DNA from: a virus
Length of the DNA stretch: 35,508 nucleotides
Direction: 5' to 3' (one strand)
Virus record (IMG/VR): IMGVR_UViG_3300044844_000380
Coordinates: 1-35,508 of that record
Shown: piece by piece, positions 8,775 through 26,097 of the stretch
Position numbering within the stretch: position 1 is the first letter of the stretch
Layout: every line of letters starts with the position of its first letter
The notes under the pieces: model-generated
What the model was told of the DNA's origin: nothing
Databases searched by the model: none
Seen by the model: only the letters and a program-made list of their open reading frames with translations
Made by a program: the position numbers and the translations under genes

Positions 8775-8796
8775 TTTCTTGCTCCTATATATTTAA

Positions 8797-9000
8797 TCAT
8801 CGCTTTAAGCTCCGCACGTAAGCAGCAAAGCTGCCCATGGTGTCCTTCTCAAACGCTTTGAAGTTGCTCACCTCCTTCGCCACCTCCTCAAGCGTGTCGT
8901 TCCTAATCTTGTTTGAGATCGGATCAAGTTGTTTTTGAATCATCTGACGCTTGCGCCATCCCAAGGCTTTTTCCCATACGTTTAGTTGTGCTTCGCTCAT
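8797..9000 (-). CDS. small hypothetical protein, 67 aa
   Basis: The start at 9000 (MSEAQLNVWEKALGWRK) is taken because AAAGG lies just upstream. The longer frame from 9051 begins in the middle of the neighbouring gene without an RBS. The product is helical and charged, with a QKQLDPISNKIRND middle and a Phe/Lys-rich end. No family is recognised. It overlaps the next minus gene by 77 bases, unusual even here, so one of the two starts or ends could be misread. Confidence 0.6.
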   Translation of the reverse strand: MSEAQLNVWEKALGWRKRQMIQKQLDPISNKIRNDTLEEVAKEVSNFKAFEKDTMGSFAAYVRSLKR

Positions 9001-9154
9001 TGTTTGCCTTTCTGTATTCCAATACTTCGTTGAGTAAACGTTCCATTTCATCAGCTGCCATCAAATGAAATGGGCTGATCGGTTTGTGGCTTGCCATTGA
9101 GCGCATCATGCCAATGGTTGTTCGTGCAGTTGTTTCACTCAGCTTTGCCATCAT
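8924..9154 (-). CDS. small hypothetical protein, 76 aa
   Basis: The product begins MMAKLSETTARTTIGMM and includes a leucine/glutamate helix FHLMAADEMERLLNEVLEYRK, then a Ser/Thr/Lys-rich tail. It starts inside the end of the upstream gene and its tail overlaps the following gene by 77 bases. The helical core is the more credible part. Function is unknown, and the long overlap lowers confidence in the C-terminal third. Confidence 0.5.
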   Translation of the reverse strand: MMAKLSETTARTTIGMMRSMASHKPISPFHLMAADEMERLLNEVLEYRKANNERSTTKRMGKSLGMAQASDDSKTT

Positions 9155-9389
9155 CTTTTGCCTTCAATTGCAACCTCAATATTCGGTTTTCGTGCAGGGC
9201 GGTTTGCACCATCTGTAGATGCTCTTTATGGCGTGACTCCATCACTTTGACAAGCTTCTGAAAGTCGTTATCCCATGCGCTCATCTTGTCTGACAAAAGC
9301 TTGGCGTGATACCAAACGTATTCGTCGGTAATGCCTTCAACAGCAATGCTTTCTTCAATAACAAATTGTTTTGCTCCTTCGGGGATCAT
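9135..9389 (-). CDS. hypothetical protein, 84 aa
   Basis: The start at 9389 overlaps the upstream stop as ATGA. The product has a short beta start (KQFVIEESIAVEG), then a long helix with DFQKLVKVMESRHKEHLQMV and HENRILRLQLKAKD, likely a coiled coil. No family is recognised. It may form dimers through the helix. Confidence 0.65.
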   Translation of the reverse strand: MIPEGAKQFVIEESIAVEGITDEYVWYHAKLLSDKMSAWDNDFQKLVKVMESRHKEHLQMVQTALHENRILRLQLKAKDDGKAE

Positions 9390-9622
9390 GTGTTTTTCTC
9401 CTTGAGTTTGTTGGAAATCAGGCTTGCGAATTGTTTAAGGCATATCTCATCGCCTAGCATTCCCTCGCCCAGTGGCAGGTCGTAGAACTTTTTGGCAACG
9501 TCGTCATAAACACGCTTGACCCAAGGAATAAGTCCGGCATCAAGAGCAAGTTGGTTTATCTCATCATCCGTCAGACCCCTCCAAGGGCGAACGTATTCTT
9601 GGATGTCATCGTCATCAGTCAT
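9386..9622 (-). CDS. hypothetical protein, 78 aa
   Basis: The start is moved to 9622 (MTDDDDIQEYVRPWRGLTDD) because AAGGGGA lies before it and the codon makes an ATGA overlap with the previous gene. The motif GLTDDEINQLALDAGL followed by FASLISNKL is a pattern I know from small cyanophage and other phage proteins of unknown function. The acidic N-terminus is notable. The role cannot be assigned. Confidence 0.7.
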   Translation of the reverse strand: MTDDDDIQEYVRPWRGLTDDEINQLALDAGLIPWVKRVYDDVAKKFYDLPLGEGMLGDEICLKQFASLISNKLKEKNT

Positions 9623-9897
9623 GCTTGTCCCCTTGCTCGGATGGCGGTAGCAATATCTTGCCAATTTGCATATTGAGGGATGCGATGCGGTGTTGGCTCA
9701 GTCCCGCAAGCCACAACCACCTCATATTCTCCAATAGGCGTTTCAGCAATCTTGGCACACGCCTCACGCTCCTCGGCAACGACCCTCTCAACAAGAGCCA
9801 TTAGGTGTCGGGTGCTTACGTGCCACGACTTGTACTCTCGGTCTTGGTCTATGGCCTCCGCCAACATATAGGTAATTTGTTCTGCGTTGTAAGTCAT
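9619..9897 (-). CDS. hypothetical protein, 92 aa
   Basis: The product contains VVAEEREACAKIAETPIG and ends in IATAIRARG, a combination found in many phage small proteins annotated as hypothetical. Both its start (ATGA at 9894-9897) and its end are coupled to neighbours. The Cys in the ERExCAKIAE helix is typical of that class. No function is known. Confidence 0.7.
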   Translation of the reverse strand: MTYNAEQITYMLAEAIDQDREYKSWHVSTRHLMALVERVVAEEREACAKIAETPIGEYEVVVACGTEPTPHRIPQYANWQDIATAIRARGQA

Positions 9898-10070
9898 TGT
9901 TTCTCCTTGTTAAAGTACCATTTCCATCGTCGCTCTTTGGCAATCCGCAGCAGAGCATGTTTAACGTAATCCCCAACAGATAGCCCCATCTTGCGAATCA
10001 TGTCTACCTCGGTCCTAAGTAATATGATCTTGCCAACTTTGTTTTGGCCCCTGACCTTACGGACTATCAC
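9894..10070 (-). CDS. small basic DNA-binding-like protein, GTG start, 58 aa
   Basis: A GTG at 10070 (GTGA overlap with the alpha-CTD-like gene) opens a frame ending TGA at 9894-9896, again an ATGA overlap. The product is basic ([19 protein letters not shown]) and has a helix [20 protein letters not shown], which could be a ribbon-helix-helix or a related short DNA-binding fold. The gene fills an otherwise unexplained 170-base gap exactly, and the double coupling strongly supports it. Confidence 0.7.
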
Positions 10071-10423
10071 GCCTGCCCCCGCAACTTCAGTCCTCGCTCG
10101 GCCAGCTTCTCTTTAATTTCATTCAGACTTCTGCGGCCTAGATTGGGCGTTTTTAGTAAATCATTCTCGGTGTAGTAAACCAGCTGACCGATTGTGTAAA
10201 TCTCATCCGCCTCCAGACATTTAGAAGCTCTGACACTTAGCCCCAAGGATGCAATCACACCCCCGGTGTTGACATCGCGCAAAGCCCATTGATCAAGGAT
10301 GTGCTGTCTACGATCTACCATTGCCTTTGCAAGGTCATAAACCTCATAAGTTTTCACCAACAAATGCGGTGCAAGACGCAACATTTCTATTGCAAGTTGG
10401 TCAAGTAATTCTTCTTTTTTCAT
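10067..10423 (-). CDS. free-standing RNA polymerase alpha-CTD-like protein, 118 aa
   Basis: Residues about 56-115 align closely with the C-terminal domain of the RNA polymerase alpha subunit. The run SVRASKCL equals E. coli TVRSANCL, with Arg65 at the place of R265. The run [13 protein letters not shown] equals KTPNLGKKSLTEI, keeping the counterparts of N294, G296, S299 and E302, with K298 replaced by Arg. The N268 position is Lys. In alpha these residues contact UP-element DNA and activators. The first about 50 residues are not from alpha and look helical. The protein could bind promoters, recruit or block the host polymerase, or act as a decoy. The domain call is firm; the role is inference. 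Confidence 0.85.
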
Positions 10424-10433
10424 GGTTGTTCCT

Positions 10434-10784
10434 TTAGCTGATCAATGTCCGAATGACATCTTTTAATTTGGAAATCTCTAATGCTTGGTCGTCAAGAATT
10501 TTCATAAGTTCTTTGACCGTGTTTTTGTTTTTAGTTGACTCTGGGAATTCAAAATTTAAAACGTCAGACTGGAGCCCGCGGGCTTGAAGGCTATGTTTTA
10601 AAAATTGAAATAAATTTACACGGCTAGAGTGGTGTGGAATTGCACCTTTTTCCCATCGTGCCAATGTTTGTTGAGAAACGACTGTCTTTGCAAATTTGGC
10701 AAGCTCCGAACAAAATTCTTGCTGAGTAAAACCCAGTGCAAATCTATCGGCACGAAGAGCCTTACCAAAATTTTCTTCGGTCAT
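10434..10784 (-). CDS. XRE-family HTH regulator, 116 aa
   Basis: The N-terminal half holds a Cro/CI-type helix-turn-helix: [20 protein letters not shown], then [16 protein letters not shown], with the usual Gln-Gln and Trp-Glu-Lys-Gly positions. A phenylalanine-rich helix and a C-terminal coiled coil ([19 protein letters not shown]) follow, probably for dimers. Such proteins repress phage promoters. It shares an operon with the alpha-CTD-like protein, and a palindromic site overlaps the operon promoter (11540-11569), so autoregulation is plausible. Confidence 0.8.
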
Positions 10785-11080
10785 GCGTTCTTCTCCTTGA
10801 ATTTCTCTTCAACAAGCACCTTGAAGATGAATGTGTTCAGGTGGTCCGTCGTCCAGTTCGGCATCTGCTTAATGATTGCGTTTGTTTCACTATTGGTCAG
10901 GTTCTTCCAGCGCTTCTTGGCTTTGCGCGGTTTGAACACAGGCACCCTGGGGTCGGCAAAGAATTCAGGCTCATCTTTCCATGCCGCCCAGGTAAACAAC
11001 CAGCGCCACATGAGCTGCTCATTGCGGGCGGTGTACTGGTATAGCGCCATGCGTAAACATACTTCTTTAGCTGGCTTCAT
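10781..11080 (-). CDS. hypothetical aromatic protein, 99 aa
   Basis: The start is coupled to the previous gene and the stop overlaps the XRE gene by four bases. The product is rich in Trp (MWRWLFTWAAWKD, KKRWKNL, MPNWTTDHLN) and in Lys near its C-terminus. The pattern does not match a family I recognise. It may bind protein or nucleic acid through its exposed aromatic and basic residues. Confidence 0.65.
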   Translation of the reverse strand: MKPAKEVCLRMALYQYTARNEQLMWRWLFTWAAWKDEPEFFADPRVPVFKPRKAKKRWKNLTNSETNAIIKQMPNWTTDHLNTFIFKVLVEEKFKEKNA

Positions 11081-11307
11081 TTGTCGCGCTCCTCTAGCAT
11101 GGCATCGGCTGCTTTGTATGCATCTGCTGCCAGCTGGTACACGTTGGGGTGCGCGCCGCCAGCCAACAACGCTTGCATCGCCGTGTTCGCAAAGTAGTCC
11201 CGCAGCGACATGCCGTCGGTGTTAATTGAAAAGCCCAAGATCCGCGACTCATCGTCGACCATGAACCTGGGTGTAGGGAATGCTGCTCCGCCTGTTTTCT
11301 CTCTCAT
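11077..11307 (-). CDS. conserved phage hypothetical protein, 76 aa
   Basis: The sequence has GGAAFPTPRF, a GMSLRDYFANTAMQALLAGG segment and a YKAADAMLEERDK end. This is the typical pattern of a small phage protein that is common across many phages but has no known function. Its start at 11307 overlaps the HTH gene by four bases. Confidence 0.75.
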   Translation of the reverse strand: MREKTGGAAFPTPRFMVDDESRILGFSINTDGMSLRDYFANTAMQALLAGGAHPNVYQLAADAYKAADAMLEERDK

Positions 11308-11486
11308 ATTGATTCCTTTTTGGTTTCGTTTCTGATTGCCCGCCTGACAACTGTTTCTGTTACCCCAAATCTTTCTGCAATTTGTCGGTACGAAAGCCCC
11401 TGTTTACGCAGCACAATCGCTCGTCTTACATCTATTGGTGTCGCCGGCCGGCCCGCGCCAATCCTAGCTCCGCCGTGTTTTGTCAT
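11304..11486 (-). CDS. small HTH DNA-binding protein, 60 aa
   Basis: A glycine/arginine-rich N-terminus (GGARIGAGRP) precedes a resolvase- or terminase-type helix-turn-helix, LRKQGLSYRQIAERFGVTE, and a basic C-terminus. GAGxGRP-type starts are common in phage small-terminase-like and regulatory HTH proteins. It is the first gene of the minus operon, about 26 bases downstream of the -10 box, with a GGAGAGG site before its start. Most likely it is an early regulator. Confidence 0.75.
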   Translation of the reverse strand: MTKHGGARIGAGRPATPIDVRRAIVLRKQGLSYRQIAERFGVTETVVRRAIRNETKKESI

Positions 11487-11512: not shown

Positions 11513-11541
11513 ACTATACACGTATTCAAGATGGTTTGCAA
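11513..11541 (-). promoter_or_regulatory. sigma70-type promoter of the minus operon
   Basis: On the minus strand TTGCAA (11536-11541) and TATAGT (11513-11518) are separated by 17 bases, close to the ideal spacing. They lie 27 to 55 bp upstream of the first gene's start at 11486, with a GGAGAGG ribosome site in between. The -35 box is overlapped by the first half-site of an inverted-repeat operator. Confidence 0.75.
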
Positions 11542-11569
11542 CAGGTTGTTCCTGTTTATTTATAACAGG
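11540..11569. promoter_or_regulatory. inverted-repeat operator with three AACAGG half-sites
   Basis: AACAGG (11540-11545), CCTGTT (11551-11556) and AACAGG (11564-11569) form two overlapping inverted repeats with spacers of 5 and 7 bases. The centre-to-centre steps of 11 and 13 bp are about one helical turn each. The first half-site overlaps the -35 box of the minus operon. This is a typical place for a phage repressor to bind; the XRE protein at 10434-10784 or the HTH protein at 11304-11486 are candidates. Confidence 0.65.
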
Positions 11570-16996: not shown

Positions 16997-17256
16997 ATAA
17001 CAAGCTGACTGCCAAACACAGGCGCCACCTGGCTTTGGTAAAGGCTTTACCATGTAGCGTATGTGATGCACCAGGCCCCAGCGCTGCGCATCATGTAAAG
17101 CAGAACCAGCAGTACACCGCTGTCGCCCTATGTACCGACTGCCATCAGGGCCCGGTCATGGGATGGCACGGGCAGAAGCGCATGTGGGCCATCAAAAAGA
17201 TGGACGAGCTGGACGCTTTAAACATTACGATAGAACGTTTGCTGGACAACCAATGA
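16993..17256 (+). CDS. HNH-type zinc nuclease-like protein, 87 aa
   Basis: The GTG start overlaps the previous stop. The sequence CSVCDAPGPSAAHHVKQ, then ALCTDCHQGPVMG and a WHGQKRMW helix, shows two CxxC pairs and a His-His, the layout of small HNH or treble-clef nucleases such as those of the DUF968/Ref type. It would bind zinc and may nick or cut DNA in recombination. Assignment to a specific HNH subfamily is not secure. Confidence 0.7.
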   Translation: MNNKLTAKHRRHLALVKALPCSVCDAPGPSAAHHVKQNQQYTAVALCTDCHQGPVMGWHGQKRMWAIKKMDELDALNITIERLLDNQ

Positions 17257-18086
17257 GCCCATACCGCATCACTGAACCAACGTGCATTTCTTTTTCCGGT
17301 GGGCGCACCTCGGCATACATGCTATGGAAAATCCTGGAAGCTCACGACATGAGCCTACCAAGCGAAGCTATAGTTTGTTTTGCTAATACGGGCAAAGAAG
17401 AAGAAGCTACGCTACGGTTCATTGATCGGTGTTCTAAAGAATGGGGCGTCAAGATTCATTGGTTGGAATACACCCACCACGAAGACGTCAAGCAAAGGTT
17501 TAAACAAGTTACGTTTGAAACGGCCAGCCGGGATGGCCAGCCATTCTTTGAGCTTATAGATCAGAACGGCAAACCCTTCCTGCCCAATCCCGTTGCGCGC
17601 ATCTGTACCGTGCGACTCAAGCTTAATGTTATCCATCACTACTTGCTATCCCTGGGATGGGATCACGAAGAGAATCAAGACTGGGTCGGCATTAGGGCAG
17701 ACGAGCTACGCAGGGCGGCAAAGATTCACCGCAGCCGAACACCTTTAGTCGTCGATGGCGTGACCAAAGAAACCGTAGGAAACTTCTGGCGCCAGCATTC
17801 CTTTGACCTAGAGCTGCCCAGCATGAACGGCGTCACCATGCACGGCAACTGCGACCTATGCTTTTTAAAGCCAGCTCAACAAATTTTGAGCCTGATTCGG
17901 GAGAAGCCTGAGCGCGCAAACTGGTGGATTAAGATGGAGCAACACGCCCAATCCAGCGCCCGTAATACTGGCGCCACCTTTAGAAATGACCGGCCAAGCT
18001 ACGCTCAGATGCAGGAATTTGCTTTAAAACAAACAGATTTGTTTGACCCAGACGACGAGGGCATCGCCTGTTTCTGTGGTGATTAG
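17253..18086 (+). CDS. PAPS-reductase-like PP-loop protein, 277 aa
   Basis: The start at 17253 is fixed by ATGA coupling. SFSGGRTS (residues 13-20) is the PP-loop, followed by VCFANTGKEEE, GIRADE (about 146-151) and several cysteines: 118 (ICTVRLK), 200 and 203 (GNCDLC), and 273 and 275 (CFC). Members of the adenosine 5'-phosphosulfate reductase superfamily include DndC-like proteins and many phage enzymes of unknown substrate. It could activate sulfur or thiolate a base, but no DNA phosphorothioation partner genes are visible. It ends the operon. Confidence 0.8.
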   Translation: MSPYRITEPTCISFSGGRTSAYMLWKILEAHDMSLPSEAIVCFANTGKEEEATLRFIDRCSKEWGVKIHWLEYTHHEDVKQRFKQVTFETASRDGQPFFELIDQNGKPFLPNPVARICTVRLKLNVIHHYLLSLGWDHEENQDWVGIRADELRRAAKIHRSRTPLVVDGVTKETVGNFWRQHSFDLELPSMNGVTMHGNCDLCFLKPAQQILSLIREKPERANWWIKMEQHAQSSARNTGATFRNDRPSYAQMQEFALKQTDLFDPDDEGIACFCGD

Positions 18087-18141: not shown

Positions 18142-21100
18142 TCATTTAAGAGATTTACGTACTGACTCAGCTTGCTCGGCGTACATGCCAATTAGTTCTT
18201 TCAAACGGTCAATTTCTTCACGCTTGTCAGAGCCGGTCAGCCCTTCGTTGGCGTTAACTTCCCGAATCTGTTTACGCACTGCAGCCATCTTCTTGGATGT
18301 CTGGTCGTACAGTTTTGCCAAGGCAATCTTGTCGCCCTTCTCTTCCAGGATTTCCATAACTTTATCCGTTTGATTGGATTCAGCGTAGTGGCGCATGTCA
18401 GCAAAGGCCTGGCTAATCTGACGATTGTTCTCATAGAACGCCGTGGCATAGCGCGACTGGTTAGAAGGTAGAGACTTAATCAATCCCAAGCTGGCGCGGT
18501 CCAACCACTTTGCATCAGGATAATCACCATCATTAAACGGCATAACGGCGTAATGACTGGTAACGGCAGCCGTGCTACCCAGCCAACCAAAGTAGGCCTT
18601 GATTGCGTAGTCCACCTGGACGGGCGACAGCTCACCCTTCTCACCCAGGATAGCAGTCATGCCGCCCAGAGCTATGGCCAGCGGGCTAGTTGTGTCAGCT
18701 GCGCGCTCCTGCTTAGACAGACGCTCCATGCCAGCGCTTTCAATTGGCGAGCCGGTGAAGCTATCTTTGTTGGCATACAGGTCTAGCACTGGTTTGAATA
18801 TCTGCGGCACAGGATTCAAAGCAAACGTATCACCCAGCATGCGCTTGATACTGTCGCCAAACTGTTTGCCTTCTGCTTCCTGGTCAACGATCTGCTCCAG
18901 GACGCGCTCAGCCATGGTTCCAAATGCGCCGATTTCAAACGGCTTTGGTACACGGAATGCGAAATCCATACCTGGCAGCTTGAACCACCAGAAATTATCG
19001 CGGTCCCACTCGTCGCGTTTCTTGTAGTCTTCGTCGTCTTTAAAGATCATGTACAAAGCCATAGACGCACCGGCCACAGCCAATGTGGTGTAGCCAAATG
19101 ATTCAGCTTTCTGCTTGTCTGTCTGCTCAATTGGTTTGCCGGTCACGGTGTTGTACAAAACGCGAGCTGTAGGCGTAACGCCATCACGGCCCAGCTTGTA
19201 CAAACCCTGGATGCGAGCATTCATAAACGGAACCACCTGGGTGACCAACCTAAACGCTGGCCACGAACCCTGCATAGAGAAGTCCAGCAGATCCCTGGCA
19301 GCGAACGATGCCTGGAGGTGCGTTAGCTTACGCTCGCGCATCTGGTTATACAAAGCCATGCGGTTAGCGGCTTCAGATTTATTACCCCACTCCTGATACT
19401 TATCCCAGGCCGCGCTCAGGCCGGCTTTAATCTTCTCTGGCGTGTCCAGAATATGTTCACCTTTAACACCTTGAGCCAGCAAGCGTTTAATCAGCCTAGA
19501 CTGGTCGCCCTCATAAGCCGAGCCAAAGTTAAAGATTGCACCGCCAGCCAAAGCAGAAATATGCGCAGGATTATTTTTATCCGTGGCAGCCCAGCCCTCA
19601 ATCACGTTGGCAAATGGATTGCGTTTTAAATCGCTAACAGCAATTGCCTGGATTGAATCGCGAATCAAGTTGTTTGTCTTGAAAGCGGGGGAAATGGTCA
19701 CGCCGTATTGCAGCAGATTCTTGAAGTCGCGAGCTACATCCAGAAACTTTGACTTGGGGCCCAGGTAGCCAATCGATGTAATGGAATCCAGCAGCATCGG
19801 ATCCAGCACTTCAAAGTAGGCGGGCTGACCGTTCATCATTGTCTTGACGACACCTTTGCCGGCCTCGGTGTATTCGGGGCGTAAAGACCCATCACCCACC
19901 AACTCACCAGATTTGGTAGACACAACCTTGCCGTCTTCCCAAGCCAAGCCAACTTTCAAATTAGGAATGGCAGCGCCCACTTCCATGGCTGCATCAAGCG
20001 TTGCGTTGGATGCCTGATTCTTCATCGACGCAGACAGGATATGACTCCAGTTGCGCAGCGTGTTTTCCATCAGATCGCCAAATGGCTTGTCACTCTGACC
20101 CTTTAGTTCAGCACTAAACTTCTGGCTAGTTAAACCAGACGCCGTGGCCGCATCTTGCAGGTCGCCACTCTCCATTTGTTTATAGAACGGAATGTAGAAC
20201 AGGTCCTGAGAGAAGCGTTCGTATGCCTTTTGATCCATCAGGCCGGCGTTGTAAGCAACATCTAGCACAGATTTATTCAGGGCGTTCATGTCCTTCTGGA
20301 CTTCTTGATACACCTCTAAGCGGGGCCTACCATTGATTTCACCTTGCACCAGCTGATCACGGTCAGCAAGCAGCGGGGCTAGGTTAGGAGAGCGTTTGTC
20401 AATAGGCAGGCGGGACTCACGACCAAGGGCAATCCACATCATGTAGCGGTCTGTCTCAGCACCGACCGGTTTCATCGCTTCAAACAAACCTTTGGTCTTG
20501 CCCTTGATATCCAAGGCGCCGCCGTTGTTGTAGACATGGCCGTGCATCAGTAAGCCTTCTAGCGCGCCGTCCACAGTCTTTGACAGACGGGCCATCATGT
20601 AGGCCTCTTCGCTGTAGTCTTTGATGGTGCGGTACTGGTCAGCAATACCCTGGGCAGCACGGCGCCAGAAGCCATCTTGCAAGCCAGCAATACGGTCAAT
20701 GATTGTCTTGGTCTGGGGGTTAAATACTGCGCCCAGCTTCTCAACATAATCCGCATCAAGGTCAGACAGGGCTTCGCGGTTAATAGGCTCACGCTTCTGT
20801 AGCTTCTGTTGGGCTGCAGCTTTGACGGTTGCTGCAACCTTGGCCGCCGACTCACCAGCTTCTTTGAGCATGAACATTTCCATCTGCGCATCTTGCGAGA
20901 TGATTGGCGGAATCGTCATGTCCTTGGCTTTTTGAGCAACTTCATTAGCCGCTTCTAAATACTTCTTGAACGTTTCGTTAGGCAGGTAGCCGGCATTCTT
21001 TACCTTGGCATAGAACGCACGGAGCGAATCAGCCAGGCGTTTAAAGAATTGCTCAACCACACCTACGGGTTTGTCAGACGTCAGCGCCCAACGGGAAACC

Positions 21101-24100
21101 TGGTCGGCGTACCACTCTTTAAAGTTAAACCAATACGAATCCATGTCGGCGGCCATAGCGCCTTCACTAATGTCCGTGGTTTTTGCCGTTGTCTTGGCGC
21201 GCAAAGAATTGACCAGCTCACGAGCAGTCTTGCCTTTGGTAGACGCCAACCACTTGTCGTATTCAGCTTTGATGGCCGCTTGGGTTTCAGCGGGCGCTTT
21301 GTTAAACACCTCAAACTGGTGCATGTGTCCCATTTCGTGCGCCAGAATTTCTAACATTGATGTAATGCTAGAAGACGGCGTCATGGCAATGTAGTAATCC
21401 CCATTAGGCATCTGGCGCATAGAGCCAGCCGAACGGTAGTCCAGGGCAGCAGAACCAACGGCGCGCCACTGTCCCGTCATGTTGTGTGCATCTACGCGGG
21501 CATCAGGGATTGTTGTGATGTAGATATTGTTAGTGATGCCCAACAACTCTTTCCAGCCTTTGACCACGCCCGCAATTTTAGGCGGCATATTCTTGGAAAA
21601 CGCCAACCCATTTTTGTCAAATTTAATAAATGGATTCTCAGCTTCTGCCTGTGCATCGGCTGTTTCCAAATCTAATTTAACCTGACGCAACTCTTTGGTT
21701 TCGGCTGCTGTTAAACCGTTGGTGCCTTGTTGCGTATCAATATCAAAGTTGTTGCGGGTAAAATCTTTGATAGCCACATAAACCGGATTGCCTGTTCGTT
21801 TGTTCCAACCACGAACCAAAGCCAACGATCCACGCTGCCAGACCACCTGGCCGTTCACGCCTTCGGCTCCAGCATCTACAAAAGCAATCTGCTCTGGCGT
21901 AGCATCCCGCAACATGTACAAGAACTCACCTCGGTCAGAGTACTGGACATTCTTAGCCAGCACGAAACGGCCTATCTGGATAACGTCGTCAGCAGCTATC
22001 ACAGGCTGCTTGGTTGCCCGGTCATAGAAGTAGGAATGACGCAGCGGATCAAAGCTAACCTGTGACCATGCCTTATCTTTCAATAAGCGCTGGACCATTG
22101 CATAGGCTTCTTCAGGTGTAATGTTGACCCAGTTACCTTCCATGGTTTGCTGGGGTGACTTGTTGCCCTGCGGCACAACACTGCCACTTGCGCTAATCTT
22201 GGGCTCAGCCTGGGTGGCCACCTTCATGGCGGCCTTTTGATTGCGGATAGAGAACCGTACGTTCTGTATGCGGGCAGCGCTTGAGTAACTGATGGGTGAT
22301 TTAGGATTATTTTCTGGATGGATAGCAACAACGCTACCTGTCAAACCCTGAGCTTTAGCGCGGCCCAGGGCATTAATATCCATGCGCAAACCAACCGGCG
22401 TACCGTCAGCAATTGGCGCATTCATTTTGGATATCTGGTTAGTCTGCAAAACCAGCTTCATGTCAGATTGAGACATGGGCCGCTCAGGGTTTGGAATTGT
22501 GCCAATAGGCATGTAGAAATCTACATACTCATCAAACTGTTCTTTGGTAATGCGGCCAGCTTGTAGTTCGCGAGCAGCCAACACAACCTGTTCGTTGCGA
22601 TTTTCTTTGAGCGTAAAACCCTCTGGCTTCTTGAGCTTTGGAGGTGCCTTGGGCTTTGCTGGTTCGGCAAAGATATCTCCCTGACCTTGGGCCGCGGCAA
22701 CATCAGCATCACGGTCGCTACCTGTCAGGACAAAGTCAGCAGCGGCTTCGTCGGCTTTAGCTTTCTCTTCCGCAGCGCGCTCGGCAGCTTTCCTGTCCTT
22801 TTCCGCTTTGATTGCAGCATCTTGCTTGGCCACAATCTCTTCAACGGAAGGTTGGGTTAGCGTGAGTTCAGCTCCCGCATCGCTCGGTTCGCCAGTATCC
22901 TGGACGCTATCTTCACGGCCTCGGGCGATGGCTCCTTCGAGGGCTGACTTGAAGGCTTTGTAGTAGGCTTGGACTGATTGGTTTTCTGTTTCATAAAAGA
23001 CCTCTTCTCTCATTGATTCTGTATCGATGCCAAGCTCATCGGCCTGGGCCAGCAGCGCGCGCACTTCAGCCTGGACGTCAGGGTCGGCAGCTTCGTAGCC
23101 GGTGCCGTCAAAGTCAGACATCTCATAACCCAGCTCTTCATCGACGGGGGAATACAGGGATGCCTCTTCTTCTGCTTTGCGGTAATCTTCAAAGCGCTTT
23201 TCTTCGTCGCGCTTGGCCATTTCTTCTATATCTTGTTGGCGATACTGCGGCTTCTTGACGCTTTCCGTAATCATGTTGCGGGCGTCGTTCTGGGTAGCTT
23301 TATCACCCAGGTAGCCGGCTGCTTGAAGCTTGGTGTAAGCCTCTTCCATCGTCATGCCTTTGCCTTCGCCAGCAAACAGGTAACGATTACCAACACGGAC
23401 ATTCTTGTCCATGCCCAGGTCAGACATTTCAGTTTTAACTATGCCGCCTTCGCTGGTGATGTACTCGTGGGCAGACATTGGCGTACCCGTAGCCGACGTC
23501 TTGGCCAGGCCTAAACGTTTAGCTTTAGCTTCATCAGCAGCAATCTGCTTGGGCGTCTTGGGCGCCAGGATGAAACCCTTCCCGTTTTTATTGGGCAACA
23601 CGCGCATTTCAGGATAGTTCTTACGCGCCATATCTGCTGACTTGCGGGTTTTAAACGGTACGCCGCCTTCAGTAACGGGCTGCGGTGCTACCGCCAACTT
23701 ACCCTTGTCATCCAACTCGCGCTTGGCAGATGCGTCGTGGCCAATGTTGTCAGGGTGGTTAAAGTAATCCACCTTTGGTTCTTTAGGCTTAACCACTTTG
23801 GCGGGCGGGGCCAGGCCCAGCTCATCCACTTCAGCCTGGCTAAGTTGTGGATACTCTTCCCGAACTTCAGCAGTCGTTGTTGTTTTGCGCGCCTCTGGGG
23901 ATATCACGGTAAAGACAGGCTTACCATCTGTTGACATCAAGCGAGGCGTCACCACTTCTGGAGGCTGAGCCATTCTGGCTGTAGGATTCTGAATGACTGT
24001 ATATCCATCGCGTTTTAAAGCGTCGTACAGCTTGGCAGCATCTGGTGTTACCGAGTTATCAGAAGTAAATTTCAAGCCGCGGCGCTCAGCTTCTGCCACT

Positions 24101-26097
24101 GCATCTTTATAAAGCTGTATAAATTTACCGGTTCCACCTACGCCACCGTTGTCTACATAAATGGGGTACAGACGGTTGTCTTGCATGCCAAACGTAGCGG
24201 TGCCCGTGGTGCCCTTTTTGTCCATTTGAATTTGGAAAAAGAAACCAGGAACCATTTTGCCGGCATTGGCATCTTCAACTTGCTGCTCTTCAAACTTAGG
24301 TTTTTCAAGCGTTAGCTCTGGCGTAGGCGTAACAACAACAGGCTTTTCTGCTTTTGGCTGGGGCGTCAGGTTGCCCTTCTTGTCCAGCTTTAGCTCATAT
24401 CCCAATTCACCCAATGCTTCACGTTGACGTACGTTATTCATAATCGGGTCACGGCTGTATTCGGTAGCCATGATCCCATTCACGCGAGCTTGAATATCTG
24501 TCGCCGCAGCAGCCTTCTTATCCTGCTCGGCTTTAGCAGCGGCCGCAGCCTGGTCTGCCTGGCGCTGACGGATAGACGCCATTAAATCTTCGTTAGCCGT
24601 AGTCCCAGCCAGGGACTGACGCACCTCATCAGCCCTGCGACCTTCGGCAATCTTCGCCTCTTGAGCTGCACGTTCAGCGGCAATATCTCGGCCTGCTGGC
24701 GGGATAGGGGTAACGACATCATTACCCTTTTTGTCTTGCGTAATCTGGTAGCCCAGCATAGCCAGCTGCTCATCACGACGAATAACATTCAGGGCCGGAT
24801 CGCCGCTGTATGTGGCTTCGGCCGCAGCTTTAGCTTCAGCATCACGCTTGGCTTTGGCTTCTTTCTCTGCCTGGATGCGCACCTCTTCGTCGGCAGCAGC
24901 TTTCTCGTCTGCACGGACGCGAGCGGCCTGCATCAAATCTTCATTACGTGGGGCAGCTTGTTGCTCAAACAAACCAGCAGCGCGTTCTTGTGTAGCACGT
25001 TGTGCGTCCAGCTCATCTTGTCTAGCTTTAGCGGCGGCAGCTTCACGCTCACGGGCCGCACCCATGACATCAGCACCCATGCCCTGACGGCCAGCAGCTT
25101 GCTCCTGGAACATCTCGGCGGGTGTTTTTCCGGTTAGGGAAACAGGCGGTTTGTATGCTTCTGGCTCAGGTTCTGGCGTAACTGTAGGCCTGCGTAAAGC
25201 GCCGGAAGCAGCACCGCCAACACCACCCAAAGCAGCACCGCCAAAGAATGCCTCTTTGTATTCGCGCATAGCCTCTTCGCCCTTGAGGGGTAGGCCTGCT
25301 TGCCAACGTTCACCCATTTGCTCCAGCACTTCGGTAGGGGCTTCTGCCACCACACCAACAGTTGCGCCCGTAGCAGCGCGTACACCAGCACGTTTGGCCA
25401 GCTCAGCTGCAACTTGCTGCCCCAGAATCTTTTCCGGAACTTTGCCAAAACCAAGTATTAATCTATCAGCAAAATATCCAATAGGAGCAGTGGCTGCCGC
25501 AGTTCCAAATGCTTTGCCAGGCTCTAGGGTTTCGCCAGTCCTACCCTCTTCGGCTTGACGGCGCATGAAGTTACCAAACTGCTGCAGGCCATATGTACCA
25601 ATACCAGCCAATGGTCCCACCACGGGAGCAAGTGGTCCCGACACGGCAGCAGCACCAACACCCGCAGCCACAGGTATAGCCATAGATGGGGCGCTTTGTA
25701 ATGCCTGCTCAGTAATGTAGGACGGCAGCTTCTTGGCCGCAGCCATCAGACCTTGCTCTTGATATGCTTTTTCCAGATCAGCAAACGATACACCCTGGGG
25801 TTTGCTTGCTTCTGCTTTAGCCTGTGCGCGAATGTCTTCTGCTTGTTTGCTAGCAGATTCTTTCATTCCCAGGGCTGCTTTAATACCCAACCCAATACCA
25901 GATGCGCTTTCGGGTACGGCTTCAAAGCCACGGACCGCAGCAGCTTTAGCACCACCTAGAAAGGTAGGCTCAGCGGGTATAGGCTCAGCCTGCCCCTGCA
26001 AACTCTTGATGTATGTTGCAAGTTGCGTTGCCGCCTGAACGTCACCTGCCGCATGCGCATTTTGTAGCGCACGGTAAAGAGTCTGCATGTCTGCCAT
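18142..26097 (-). CDS. giant polyvalent internal virion protein, 2651 aa
   Basis: The first about 60 residues are followed by hydrophobic, glycine-rich stretches (about 120-165 and 285-300) that could insert in a membrane. Ala/Lys-rich helical repeats with the pattern NxDLMxxxRxRxxD and LGYxxxxDKKGN follow (about 340-570). Then come a GNAT-like stretch (FTSDNSVTPDAAKLYDALKR), a zincin motif HEMGH (His1587, Glu1588, His1591), and near the C-terminus a membrane-like segment plus an LPD38-type end (WFKLPGMDFAFRVPKPFEIG). This is a polyvalent protein of the kind packed in podovirus-like heads and ejected into the cell. The zincin site may be a protease. Confidence 0.85.
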   Translation of the reverse strand: MADMQTLYRALQNAHAAGDVQAATQLATYIKSLQGQAEPIPAEPTFLGGAKAAAVRGFEAVPESASGIGLGIKAALGMKESASKQAEDIRAQAKAEASKPQGVSFADLEKAYQEQGLMAAAKKLPSYITEQALQSAPSMAIPVAAGVGAAAVSGPLAPVVGPLAGIGTYGLQQFGNFMRRQAEEGRTGETLEPGKAFGTAAATAPIGYFADRLILGFGKVPEKILGQQVAAELAKRAGVRAATGATVGVVAEAPTEVLEQMGERWQAGLPLKGEEAMREYKEAFFGGAALGGVGGAASGALRRPTVTPEPEPEAYKPPVSLTGKTPAEMFQEQAAGRQGMGADVMGAAREREAAAAKARQDELDAQRATQERAAGLFEQQAAPRNEDLMQAARVRADEKAAADEEVRIQAEKEAKAKRDAEAKAAAEATYSGDPALNVIRRDEQLAMLGYQITQDKKGNDVVTPIPPAGRDIAAERAAQEAKIAEGRRADEVRQSLAGTTANEDLMASIRQRQADQAAAAAKAEQDKKAAAATDIQARVNGIMATEYSRDPIMNNVRQREALGELGYELKLDKKGNLTPQPKAEKPVVVTPTPELTLEKPKFEEQQVEDANAGKMVPGFFFQIQMDKKGTTGTATFGMQDNRLYPIYVDNGGVGGTGKFIQLYKDAVAEAERRGLKFTSDNSVTPDAAKLYDALKRDGYTVIQNPTARMAQPPEVVTPRLMSTDGKPVFTVISPEARKTTTTAEVREEYPQLSQAEVDELGLAPPAKVVKPKEPKVDYFNHPDNIGHDASAKRELDDKGKLAVAPQPVTEGGVPFKTRKSADMARKNYPEMRVLPNKNGKGFILAPKTPKQIAADEAKAKRLGLAKTSATGTPMSAHEYITSEGGIVKTEMSDLGMDKNVRVGNRYLFAGEGKGMTMEEAYTKLQAAGYLGDKATQNDARNMITESVKKPQYRQQDIEEMAKRDEEKRFEDYRKAEEEASLYSPVDEELGYEMSDFDGTGYEAADPDVQAEVRALLAQADELGIDTESMREEVFYETENQSVQAYYKAFKSALEGAIARGREDSVQDTGEPSDAGAELTLTQPSVEEIVAKQDAAIKAEKDRKAAERAAEEKAKADEAAADFVLTGSDRDADVAAAQGQGDIFAEPAKPKAPPKLKKPEGFTLKENRNEQVVLAARELQAGRITKEQFDEYVDFYMPIGTIPNPERPMSQSDMKLVLQTNQISKMNAPIADGTPVGLRMDINALGRAKAQGLTGSVVAIHPENNPKSPISYSSAARIQNVRFSIRNQKAAMKVATQAEPKISASGSVVPQGNKSPQQTMEGNWVNITPEEAYAMVQRLLKDKAWSQVSFDPLRHSYFYDRATKQPVIAADDVIQIGRFVLAKNVQYSDRGEFLYMLRDATPEQIAFVDAGAEGVNGQVVWQRGSLALVRGWNKRTGNPVYVAIKDFTRNNFDIDTQQGTNGLTAAETKELRQVKLDLETADAQAEAENPFIKFDKNGLAFSKNMPPKIAGVVKGWKELLGITNNIYITTIPDARVDAHNMTGQWRAVGSAALDYRSAGSMRQMPNGDYYIAMTPSSSITSMLEILAHEMGHMHQFEVFNKAPAETQAAIKAEYDKWLASTKGKTARELVNSLRAKTTAKTTDISEGAMAADMDSYWFNFKEWYADQVSRWALTSDKPVGVVEQFFKRLADSLRAFYAKVKNAGYLPNETFKKYLEAANEVAQKAKDMTIPPIISQDAQMEMFMLKEAGESAAKVAATVKAAAQQKLQKREPINREALSDLDADYVEKLGAVFNPQTKTIIDRIAGLQDGFWRRAAQGIADQYRTIKDYSEEAYMMARLSKTVDGALEGLLMHGHVYNNGGALDIKGKTKGLFEAMKPVGAETDRYMMWIALGRESRLPIDKRSPNLAPLLADRDQLVQGEINGRPRLEVYQEVQKDMNALNKSVLDVAYNAGLMDQKAYERFSQDLFYIPFYKQMESGDLQDAATASGLTSQKFSAELKGQSDKPFGDLMENTLRNWSHILSASMKNQASNATLDAAMEVGAAIPNLKVGLAWEDGKVVSTKSGELVGDGSLRPEYTEAGKGVVKTMMNGQPAYFEVLDPMLLDSITSIGYLGPKSKFLDVARDFKNLLQYGVTISPAFKTNNLIRDSIQAIAVSDLKRNPFANVIEGWAATDKNNPAHISALAGGAIFNFGSAYEGDQSRLIKRLLAQGVKGEHILDTPEKIKAGLSAAWDKYQEWGNKSEAANRMALYNQMRERKLTHLQASFAARDLLDFSMQGSWPAFRLVTQVVPFMNARIQGLYKLGRDGVTPTARVLYNTVTGKPIEQTDKQKAESFGYTTLAVAGASMALYMIFKDDEDYKKRDEWDRDNFWWFKLPGMDFAFRVPKPFEIGAFGTMAERVLEQIVDQEAEGKQFGDSIKRMLGDTFALNPVPQIFKPVLDLYANKDSFTGSPIESAGMERLSKQERAADTTSPLAIALGGMTAILGEKGELSPVQVDYAIKAYFGWLGSTAAVTSHYAVMPFNDGDYPDAKWLDRASLGLIKSLPSNQSRYATAFYENNRQISQAFADMRHYAESNQTDKVMEILEEKGDKIALAKLYDQTSKKMAAVRKQIREVNANEGLTGSDKREEIDRLKELIGMYAEQAESVRKSLK

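Follow-up and report, generated by a model that had tools for sequence, protein, structure and literature searches.

The locus and its variable slot

The window, that is the whole 35,508-base stretch of the virus record submitted to analysis, encodes a primase-like protein, a helicase, an exonuclease, an Erf protein and a virion structural protein. A 42,480-base relative, with ~99% identity across most of the common region, adds the small and large terminase subunits and a portal; the window is a tailed-phage genome. Other contents include a 2651-aa polyvalent protein with an LPD38 domain (18142-26097) and a phosphoadenosine phosphosulfate reductase-like gene (17130-18086; phrog_424, E 1.3e-47), while a phage protein search with a 586-aa protein of the structural region and an Rfam search of the window both returned no match. 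The open reading frame of principal concern encodes a 118-aa protein and lies in a cluster of small minus-strand genes, the coordinates of which are collected in Table 1.

Table 1. Features of the alpha-CTD gene cluster and its surroundings, in window positions
Feature	Position	Strand	Basis or remark
Variable accessory slot	8775..10780	.	2.0 kb here; harbours the alpha-CTD gene in 9/20 contigs
58-aa gene	9894..10070	-	start overlaps stop of alpha-CTD gene; no known family
Alpha-CTD protein gene	10067..10423	-	ORF, ATG start, 118 aa; Pfam match, relatives
Alpha C-terminal domain, DNA-binding helix-hairpin-helix type (residues 57-115)	10079..10255	-	Pfam, PDB search, model superposition
Two-helix N-terminal domain, LRDYFA/phrog_2201 kind (residues 1-50)	10274..10423	-	profile-profile comparison, modelled helices
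Shine-Dalgarno-like AAAGGA	10430..10435	-	6 nt 5' of alpha-CTD gene ATG; from sequence
XRE-type regulator	10434..10784	-	directly upstream of alpha-CTD gene; Pfam
99-aa gene (u99)	10781..11080	-	no known family; edge of variable slot
Plain LRDYFA-domain protein	11077..11307	-	phrog_2201, E 2.7e-16
60-aa HTH protein (HTH60)	11304..11486	-	first gene of cluster
Sigma-70-type promoter-like site TTGCAA-17-TATAGT	11513..11541	-	5' of the cluster's first gene; consensus match only
Palindrome AACAGG-5-CCTGTT	11540..11556	.	overlaps -35 element; candidate regulator site

A chance reading frame could be excluded because of the E-values reported below, the near-identical copies of the 118-aa protein (90-100% identity, on five other contigs), the existence of remoter relatives, and dN/dS values below 1. 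Comparison with L005 gave ratios of 0.24 and 0.37 for the N- and C-terminal halves respectively, and comparison with L111 gave 0.79 and 0.57; ratios stayed below 1 in both halves for pairs with usable values, those with saturated or zero dS being excluded, and both halves of the protein were shown to be under purifying selection.

Twenty contigs, the window included, were gathered on the strength of common flanks, with HTH60 or the LRDYFA gene and u99 at one end and DUF3310 at the opposite end; among relatives the slot bounded by these two flanks, u99 and DUF3310, measures 377 to 2506 bp. The alpha-CTD gene was present in nine (the window, L002-L006 and L111-L113), and was absent from the remaining 11 (L182, L183, L185, L188, L190 and L193-L198) when the CTD profile was run against six-frame translations of the 19 other loci. 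As searching for alpha-CTDs supplied the nine carriers, whereas the LRDYFA gene as query supplied the 11 non-carriers, these counts speak to optionality, not to frequency. Because it is missing in 11 of the 20 gathered contigs, the gene is optional cargo and not core takeover machinery, and the initial annotation's description of it as a strong candidate for a polymerase-redirecting system claims more than these data support. That annotation had also placed it in one operon with an XRE and an HTH regulator; in the window the XRE regulator is the next gene upstream, but this link is not conserved, the XRE gene occurring in only four of the nine alpha-CTD-bearing contigs (the window and L002-L004). 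The 58-aa gene accompanied the alpha-CTD gene in 9/9 carriers and in 0/11 non-carriers of the phage group, counts that cover only three alpha-CTD types and hence few independent events.

The scan that located the promoter-like site ahead of HTH60 returned four sites of this type, as against 2.1 expected by chance, and a stronger one, with 11/12 matches, lies at 12115-12086 on the minus strand. The palindrome is present as a single copy in the window, scores also as a terminator-like stem on the plus strand, and was identical in 11 aligned distinct sequences including that of the window, as was most of the surrounding 170 bp conserved. Relative to the predicted start, its centre would fall at about -42 of the predicted cluster promoter and an A/T run at about -59 to -49.

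The two halves of the 118-aa protein

Within RNA polymerase it is the alpha-CTD that reads upstream promoter DNA and contacts activators. Residues 57-109 of the 118-aa protein matched the Pfam profile of this domain (PF03118, RNA_pol_A_CTD) with an E-value of 1.1e-20, scoring 73.5 bits where the cut-off is 23.8. A sequence search of the PDB at E <= 0.01 returned 50 distinct sequences, every one an RNA polymerase chain and all of them alpha by name except 1i6v_A, which is named just 'DNA-directed RNA polymerase'; the match to 1coo had an E-value of 2.7e-14. An AlphaFold2 model built from an alignment of 32 sequences (mean pLDDT 81, pTM 0.52) placed N-terminal helices at residues 3-17 and 19-51 and recovered the helix-hairpin-helix-type fold in the C-terminal half, which superposed on the E. 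coli alpha-CTD 1lb2_E with an rmsd of 0.8 over 60 columns and on 8y5l_A2 with a Z of 13.3 and an rmsd of 0.9 Å over 62 residues. Profile and fold alike confirmed the initial proposal that the C-terminal ~60 residues constitute an alpha-CTD. The further claim that this domain closely matches that of the host held as regards the domain itself, but the best bacterial identities found were 63.8% over 58 residues to a Comamonas alpha-CTD and 65.4% over 52 residues to L038 and L039, and the alphas compared may not be the host's.

As had been claimed, the rest of alpha is absent: no match to the alpha N-terminal assembly domain was found in the 118 aa, and the best RpoA model (NF003513), for which the cut-off is 302 bits, gave 79.2. 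Since it has no such domain, the protein cannot replace alpha in the polymerase. Relative to RpoA (PF03118; E. coli RpoA 249-329, PDB 1LB2 and 1COO), it shares the profile, the fold and most DNA contacts of the C-terminal domain, and differs in lacking the alpha N-terminal domain, in carrying a new N-terminal domain, in a shortened tail that ends at the counterpart of alpha residue 318, and in changes to N268 and several partner-facing residues. With E. coli alpha numbering obtained by adding 200, R265, N294, G296, S299 and E302, all five of which had been listed initially, were duly present as R65, N94, G96, S99 and E102. At the eight positions that we take to be the alpha-CTD's DNA contacts, R265, C269, N294, G296, S299 and E302 are identical, K298 is replaced by R and N268 by K, a score of six identical, one conservative and one changed. 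Elsewhere, E261 is changed to G and K271 to E, and T285 and E286 are retained.

The first 50 residues had been described as unrelated, which is correct in respect of alpha; they do, however, belong to a family of phage domains. First-pass Pfam and PHROG searches with the N-terminal half gave no match, and it was comparison by hhalign of the N-terminal family alignment with that of a short phage helical domain, characterised by the motif 'LRDYFA...AY..ADAML.AR' (phrog_2201), that returned a probability of 95.2% and a score of 40.7, the best of 60 column shuffles reaching 18.0 and the reversed alignment 7.4. The LRDYFA-family profile matched 35 of 93 alpha-CTD loci at E < 1e-3, the 93 including the best 80 of 130 confirmed matches. 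Against the local LRDYFA profile the 118-aa protein's own sequence (identical in loci L016-L018) gave an E-value of 0.64, and two family members searched against PHROGs gave phrog_2201 at E 0.066 and phrog_20565 at E 0.036 respectively; because single sequences match so weakly, the LRDYFA link rests on family comparison. By that comparison the N-terminal half is a divergent member of the LRDYFA/phrog_2201 domain family, a plain form of which is encoded three genes upstream. The plain phrog_2201 proteins examined are short, are without an alpha-CTD and mostly start with a GGPAFP-like stretch. On these assignments the small phage protein is an RNA polymerase alpha-CTD joined to a short helical domain of a type frequent among phages.

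The same two domains occur in three orders, the alpha-CTD lying behind the LRDYFA domain in the family of the 118-aa protein, between both LRDYFA helices in L161 and L162 (the same protein in two different metagenomes) and in front of the LRDYFA domain in L177; the phrog_2201 matches of the latter two fusions had E-values of 5e-16 and 8.2e-16. The CTD of L161 is nearest to Comamonas RpoA (79% identity) and is flanked by stretches similar to the alpha linker, features suggestive of a recent alpha-CTD capture distinct from that of the 118-aa protein's family. An independent origin could not be taken as proven, a tree of ~60 columns not rejecting a single clade with the family of the 118-aa protein (p-AU 0.227). 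In the model of L161 the helices of the LRDYFA halves were fairly confident and the inserted CTD was not (mean pLDDT 60, from an alignment without CTD rows). A further candidate, phrog_30599 as an Arc plus LRDYFA fusion, was set aside as merely suggestive, its halves matching mostly different proteins in genomes.

Alpha-CTD proteins in other phages and in bacterial genomes

A scan of viral contigs with the CTD alignment matched 180 stretches, of which 130 were confirmed and the best 80 of these 130 used. Profile searches for other free-standing phage alpha-CTDs yielded in all at least 93 loci, four of which run off the contig end, corresponding to 71 distinct proteins of 66-281 aa, with no alpha-sized protein among those 71 in the matches listed. 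The N-terminal domain of the 118-aa protein was recognised at E < 1e-3 in at least 58 loci (41 distinct proteins). Four loci (L028:2428-3195, L031:2470-3195, L037:2389-3231 and L164:2482-3186) each encode a single chain in which sigma-70 region 4 is combined with an alpha-CTD, the two domains exceeding their Pfam cut-offs, and such chains could possibly act as one-piece readers of the -35 and UP elements. L165 resembles these fusions, with no Pfam sigma match at E <= 0.01; L170 carries an Arc-type domain fused to an alpha-CTD just above the Pfam cut-off, and L032 has paired CxxC motifs ahead of its CTD. The alpha-CTDs of L164, L165 and L026 also matched phrog_1660, 'PmgS-like head morphogenesis', weakly (E 0.00095 to 0.015), which suggests that PmgS contains an alpha-CTD-like stretch.

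Among the INPHARED records examined, the only cultured phages with a solo alpha-CTD were Bacillus phage vB_BmeM-Goe8 (two records) and Microbacterium phage Mazun. Their proteins, Goe8 'RNA polymerase subunit alpha' (QDP42789.1) and Mazun gp26 'DNA binding protein' (141 aa), likewise carry a free C-terminal alpha-CTD, with other N-terminal parts and with 42.6% and 40.0% identity respectively to the 118-aa protein across the CTD alone. The 22 matching INPHARED records could not all be accepted as phage evidence: seven labelled as phage carry bacterial rpoA itself and were rejected as contamination (MT836419, MT837142, MT839913, MT835508, MT837710, OR844994 and MT839982), six encoding full-length RpoA of 314-324 aa and one a product of 208 aa that ends at the record end. 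Four further matches are annotated RpoA, and a second search with the relative L133 gave an extra match in a Ruegeria phage.

In UniProt, proteins of uncultured Caudovirales phages already bear the name 'RNA polymerase, alpha subunit, C-terminal', so that the free phage alpha-CTD is a kind known by name. These are small, like the 118-aa protein (111-204 aa among the matches listed), and the set is known here by names and fold matches; one example, A0A6J5MNY7 (128 aa), aligned over 128 columns with an E-value of 1.1e-8. Among the matches listed from the open-licence literature there was no title or abstract opening on the subject of free-standing phage alpha-CTDs; with the terms searched, no alpha-CTD passage was found in PMC7824862, which deals with jumbo phages, nor alpha-CTD residue names in PMC4495994.

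A genome scan for full-length relatives yielded 73 loci, none of them matching residues 1-36. Of its 76 match rows, 67 fell in alpha-size frames, three in short frames that end at a contig edge, and six represented three Planctomycetota-type alphas with two CTDs each. The alpha subunits of L106, L107 and L109, from Planctomycetota/Phycisphaerae genomes, are 432-496 aa long and carry a tandem CTD pair. In 398 genomes of one phylum an alpha-CTD match was detected in 385 and more than one match in 21; ten extra matches in this sample were open frames of 87-204 aa. The N-terminal domain of the 118-aa protein was not seen by eye in nine such proteins (eight of the ten and one longer frame), one of the eight, L273, resembling a fragment of alpha. 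The bacterial contigs L268 (two genes) and L269 encode solo alpha-CTD proteins and also contain an Arc-type gene, and these genes are probably prophage or element cargo.

Conserved surfaces and candidate functions

The surfaces of the domain were compared using 29 distinct CTDs of the 118-aa protein's family (mean identity 0.654) and 65 distinct bacterial RpoA CTDs out of 105, after removal of duplicates and of any row containing two or more gaps (mean identity 0.72); an RpoA subset matched to the phage diversity (0.657) served for the entropies. As the sequences in both sets are related, the counts are not independent. The grouping of residues into DNA, sigma and activator sides follows the alpha-CTD literature.

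On the DNA side, R265, N294, G296, S299 and E302 were found in 29/29 family CTDs, K/R298 in 29/29 and C269 in 28/29, all seven positions being invariant in 65/65 RpoA CTDs, and mean entropy was 0.33 as against 0.0 in matched RpoA. The exception was N268, present in 65/65 RpoA CTDs and in only 11/29 of the family, where it is changed to R (8), H (7), K (2) or S (1). In a wider set of 65 distinct phage CTD stretches, R265, G296 and E302 were found in all 65, N294 in 64, K/R298 in 62 and S299 in 60. Pfam match, model and residue counts together sustain the initial view of a free-standing alpha-CTD with its DNA-contact surface largely kept, although the N268 change may mean that UP-element reading is altered or lost.

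It is with this change in most family members that one alternative begins, namely that the protein binds nucleic acids as a general module and has no function at promoters, serving for example DNA protection, replication, packaging or counter-defence, for which an alpha origin would be only history. PMC12839542 describes an alpha-CTD-like domain in the BREX protein PglW, so the fold does not of itself imply a promoter role; the weak phrog_1660 matches of other phages' alpha-CTDs and the location of the gene in a variable accessory slot with small genes of no known family point the same way. Against this, the family shares with true alpha the invariance of its remaining DNA contacts, and transcription-type domains accompany the alpha-CTD in some fusions from other phages; the proposal is judged rather unlikely.

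On the sigma side, acid 259 was E/D in 64/65 RpoA CTDs as against 7/29 of the family, and acid 261 in 65/65 as against 15/29, with a mean entropy of 1.58 compared with 1.0 in matched RpoA; position 258 showed the opposite trend, being acidic in 27/29 family CTDs and in 26/65 of RpoA. These counts bear upon the suggestion, made initially, that a free alpha-CTD might recruit polymerase; recruitment in the manner normal for alpha next to sigma is weakened by the losses at 259 and 261, though position 258 is an exception. In its fuller form this alternative has the N-terminal domain binding polymerase or another phage regulator while the complex is tethered to phage promoters by the alpha-CTD. Precedent exists for phage action on host alpha-CTD: according to PMC2988021, which confirms R265 as an alpha-CTD residue, T4 Alt and ModA modify Arg265 of host alpha, and according to PMC7552054 the Rac protein of the phiKMV group leads to removal of the alpha-CTD by cleavage of alpha. 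On those accounts the common target process is alpha-CTD use at promoters, but these proteins modify host alpha or cause its cleavage, whereas the 118-aa protein itself carries an alpha-CTD. The fusions with sigma-70 region 4 and the A/T run of the predicted cluster promoter would also suit a recruiter, as would the failure to find a phage RNA polymerase (PF00940) in the window or five related contigs, a search in which no control matched and which therefore carries little weight. Given the poorly conserved sigma face, a gene absent from more than half of the gathered contigs and an XRE neighbour that is not conserved, recruitment is considered unlikely.

The activator side was altered without being more variable (mean entropy 1.21 as against 1.25 in matched RpoA), and the 273 side was similar in both sets (1.0 and 1.1 respectively). 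Position 288 was E/D/Q in 65/65 RpoA CTDs and R in 15/29 of the family; position 286 was E in 62/65 and 19/29 respectively; and position 315, G in 57/65 RpoA CTDs, was R/K in 28/29 of the family. The earlier idea that the protein titrates activators is mildly weakened by the changes at 288 and 315, but not by variability as such. A decoy of this kind, sequestering host activators or blocking sigma region 4 and so reducing host transcription, would be consistent with the retained fold, with T285 and E286 in the 118-aa protein and with an activator side no more variable than that of RpoA; the altered residues at 259, 261, 288 and 315, the invariance of most DNA contacts and the truncated tail make it distinctly improbable.

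In summary of these counts and entropies, the family has a relaxed sigma side, an altered but not more variable activator side, and a DNA side kept bar N268. Of 29 phage CTD stretches outside the family, 26 have N268, 18 an acid at 259, 16 an acid at 261 and 21 an acid at 288, so that partner-residue loss is a trait of the 118-aa protein's family and not of all phage alpha-CTDs.

A protein that retains most of its DNA face, has a relaxed sigma face and lacks the assembly domain is most economically read as a DNA-binding accessory regulator that reuses the alpha-CTD, probably at A/T-rich upstream promoter DNA, an interpretation that we hold at a little under even confidence. It draws on the domain make-up, predicted fold, residue conservation, purifying selection and accessory status established above, and is supported by the joining of the alpha-CTD to the LRDYFA domain in three orders and of alpha-CTDs elsewhere to DNA-binding parts (sigma-70 region 4, Arc-type); DNA binding, early timing, target sites and an effect on transcription are what we infer. 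The N268 change, an activator side no more variable than RpoA's and the use of the fold in PglW weigh against it. The C-terminal half would be an alpha-CTD derived from proteobacterial rpoA and retained as a minor-groove binder of A/T-rich DNA, and the LRDYFA-type helical hairpin probably provides protein-protein contact or self-association. Early in infection such a protein would most likely sit on UP-element-like sequences that precede promoters of the host or the phage, where it would compete with, or help, the host's own alpha-CTD.

More broadly, it is a tentative proposition, with the balance of belief against it, that repeated domestication in phages has made the alpha-CTD a plug-in domain for DNA binding, attached to LRDYFA on either side or within it and also to sigma region 4, to Arc and to parts resembling a zinc ribbon. 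A family that keeps most of a DNA-reading surface while its sigma-facing residues drift amounts to a natural separation-of-function experiment, and the alpha-CTD fusion offers a handle on the role of the LRDYFA phage domain. If the plug-in reading is true, these proteins would form a class of transcription regulators in phages that has gone unstudied, and would provide the first functional link for the LRDYFA family, placing it next to promoter DNA or RNA polymerase.
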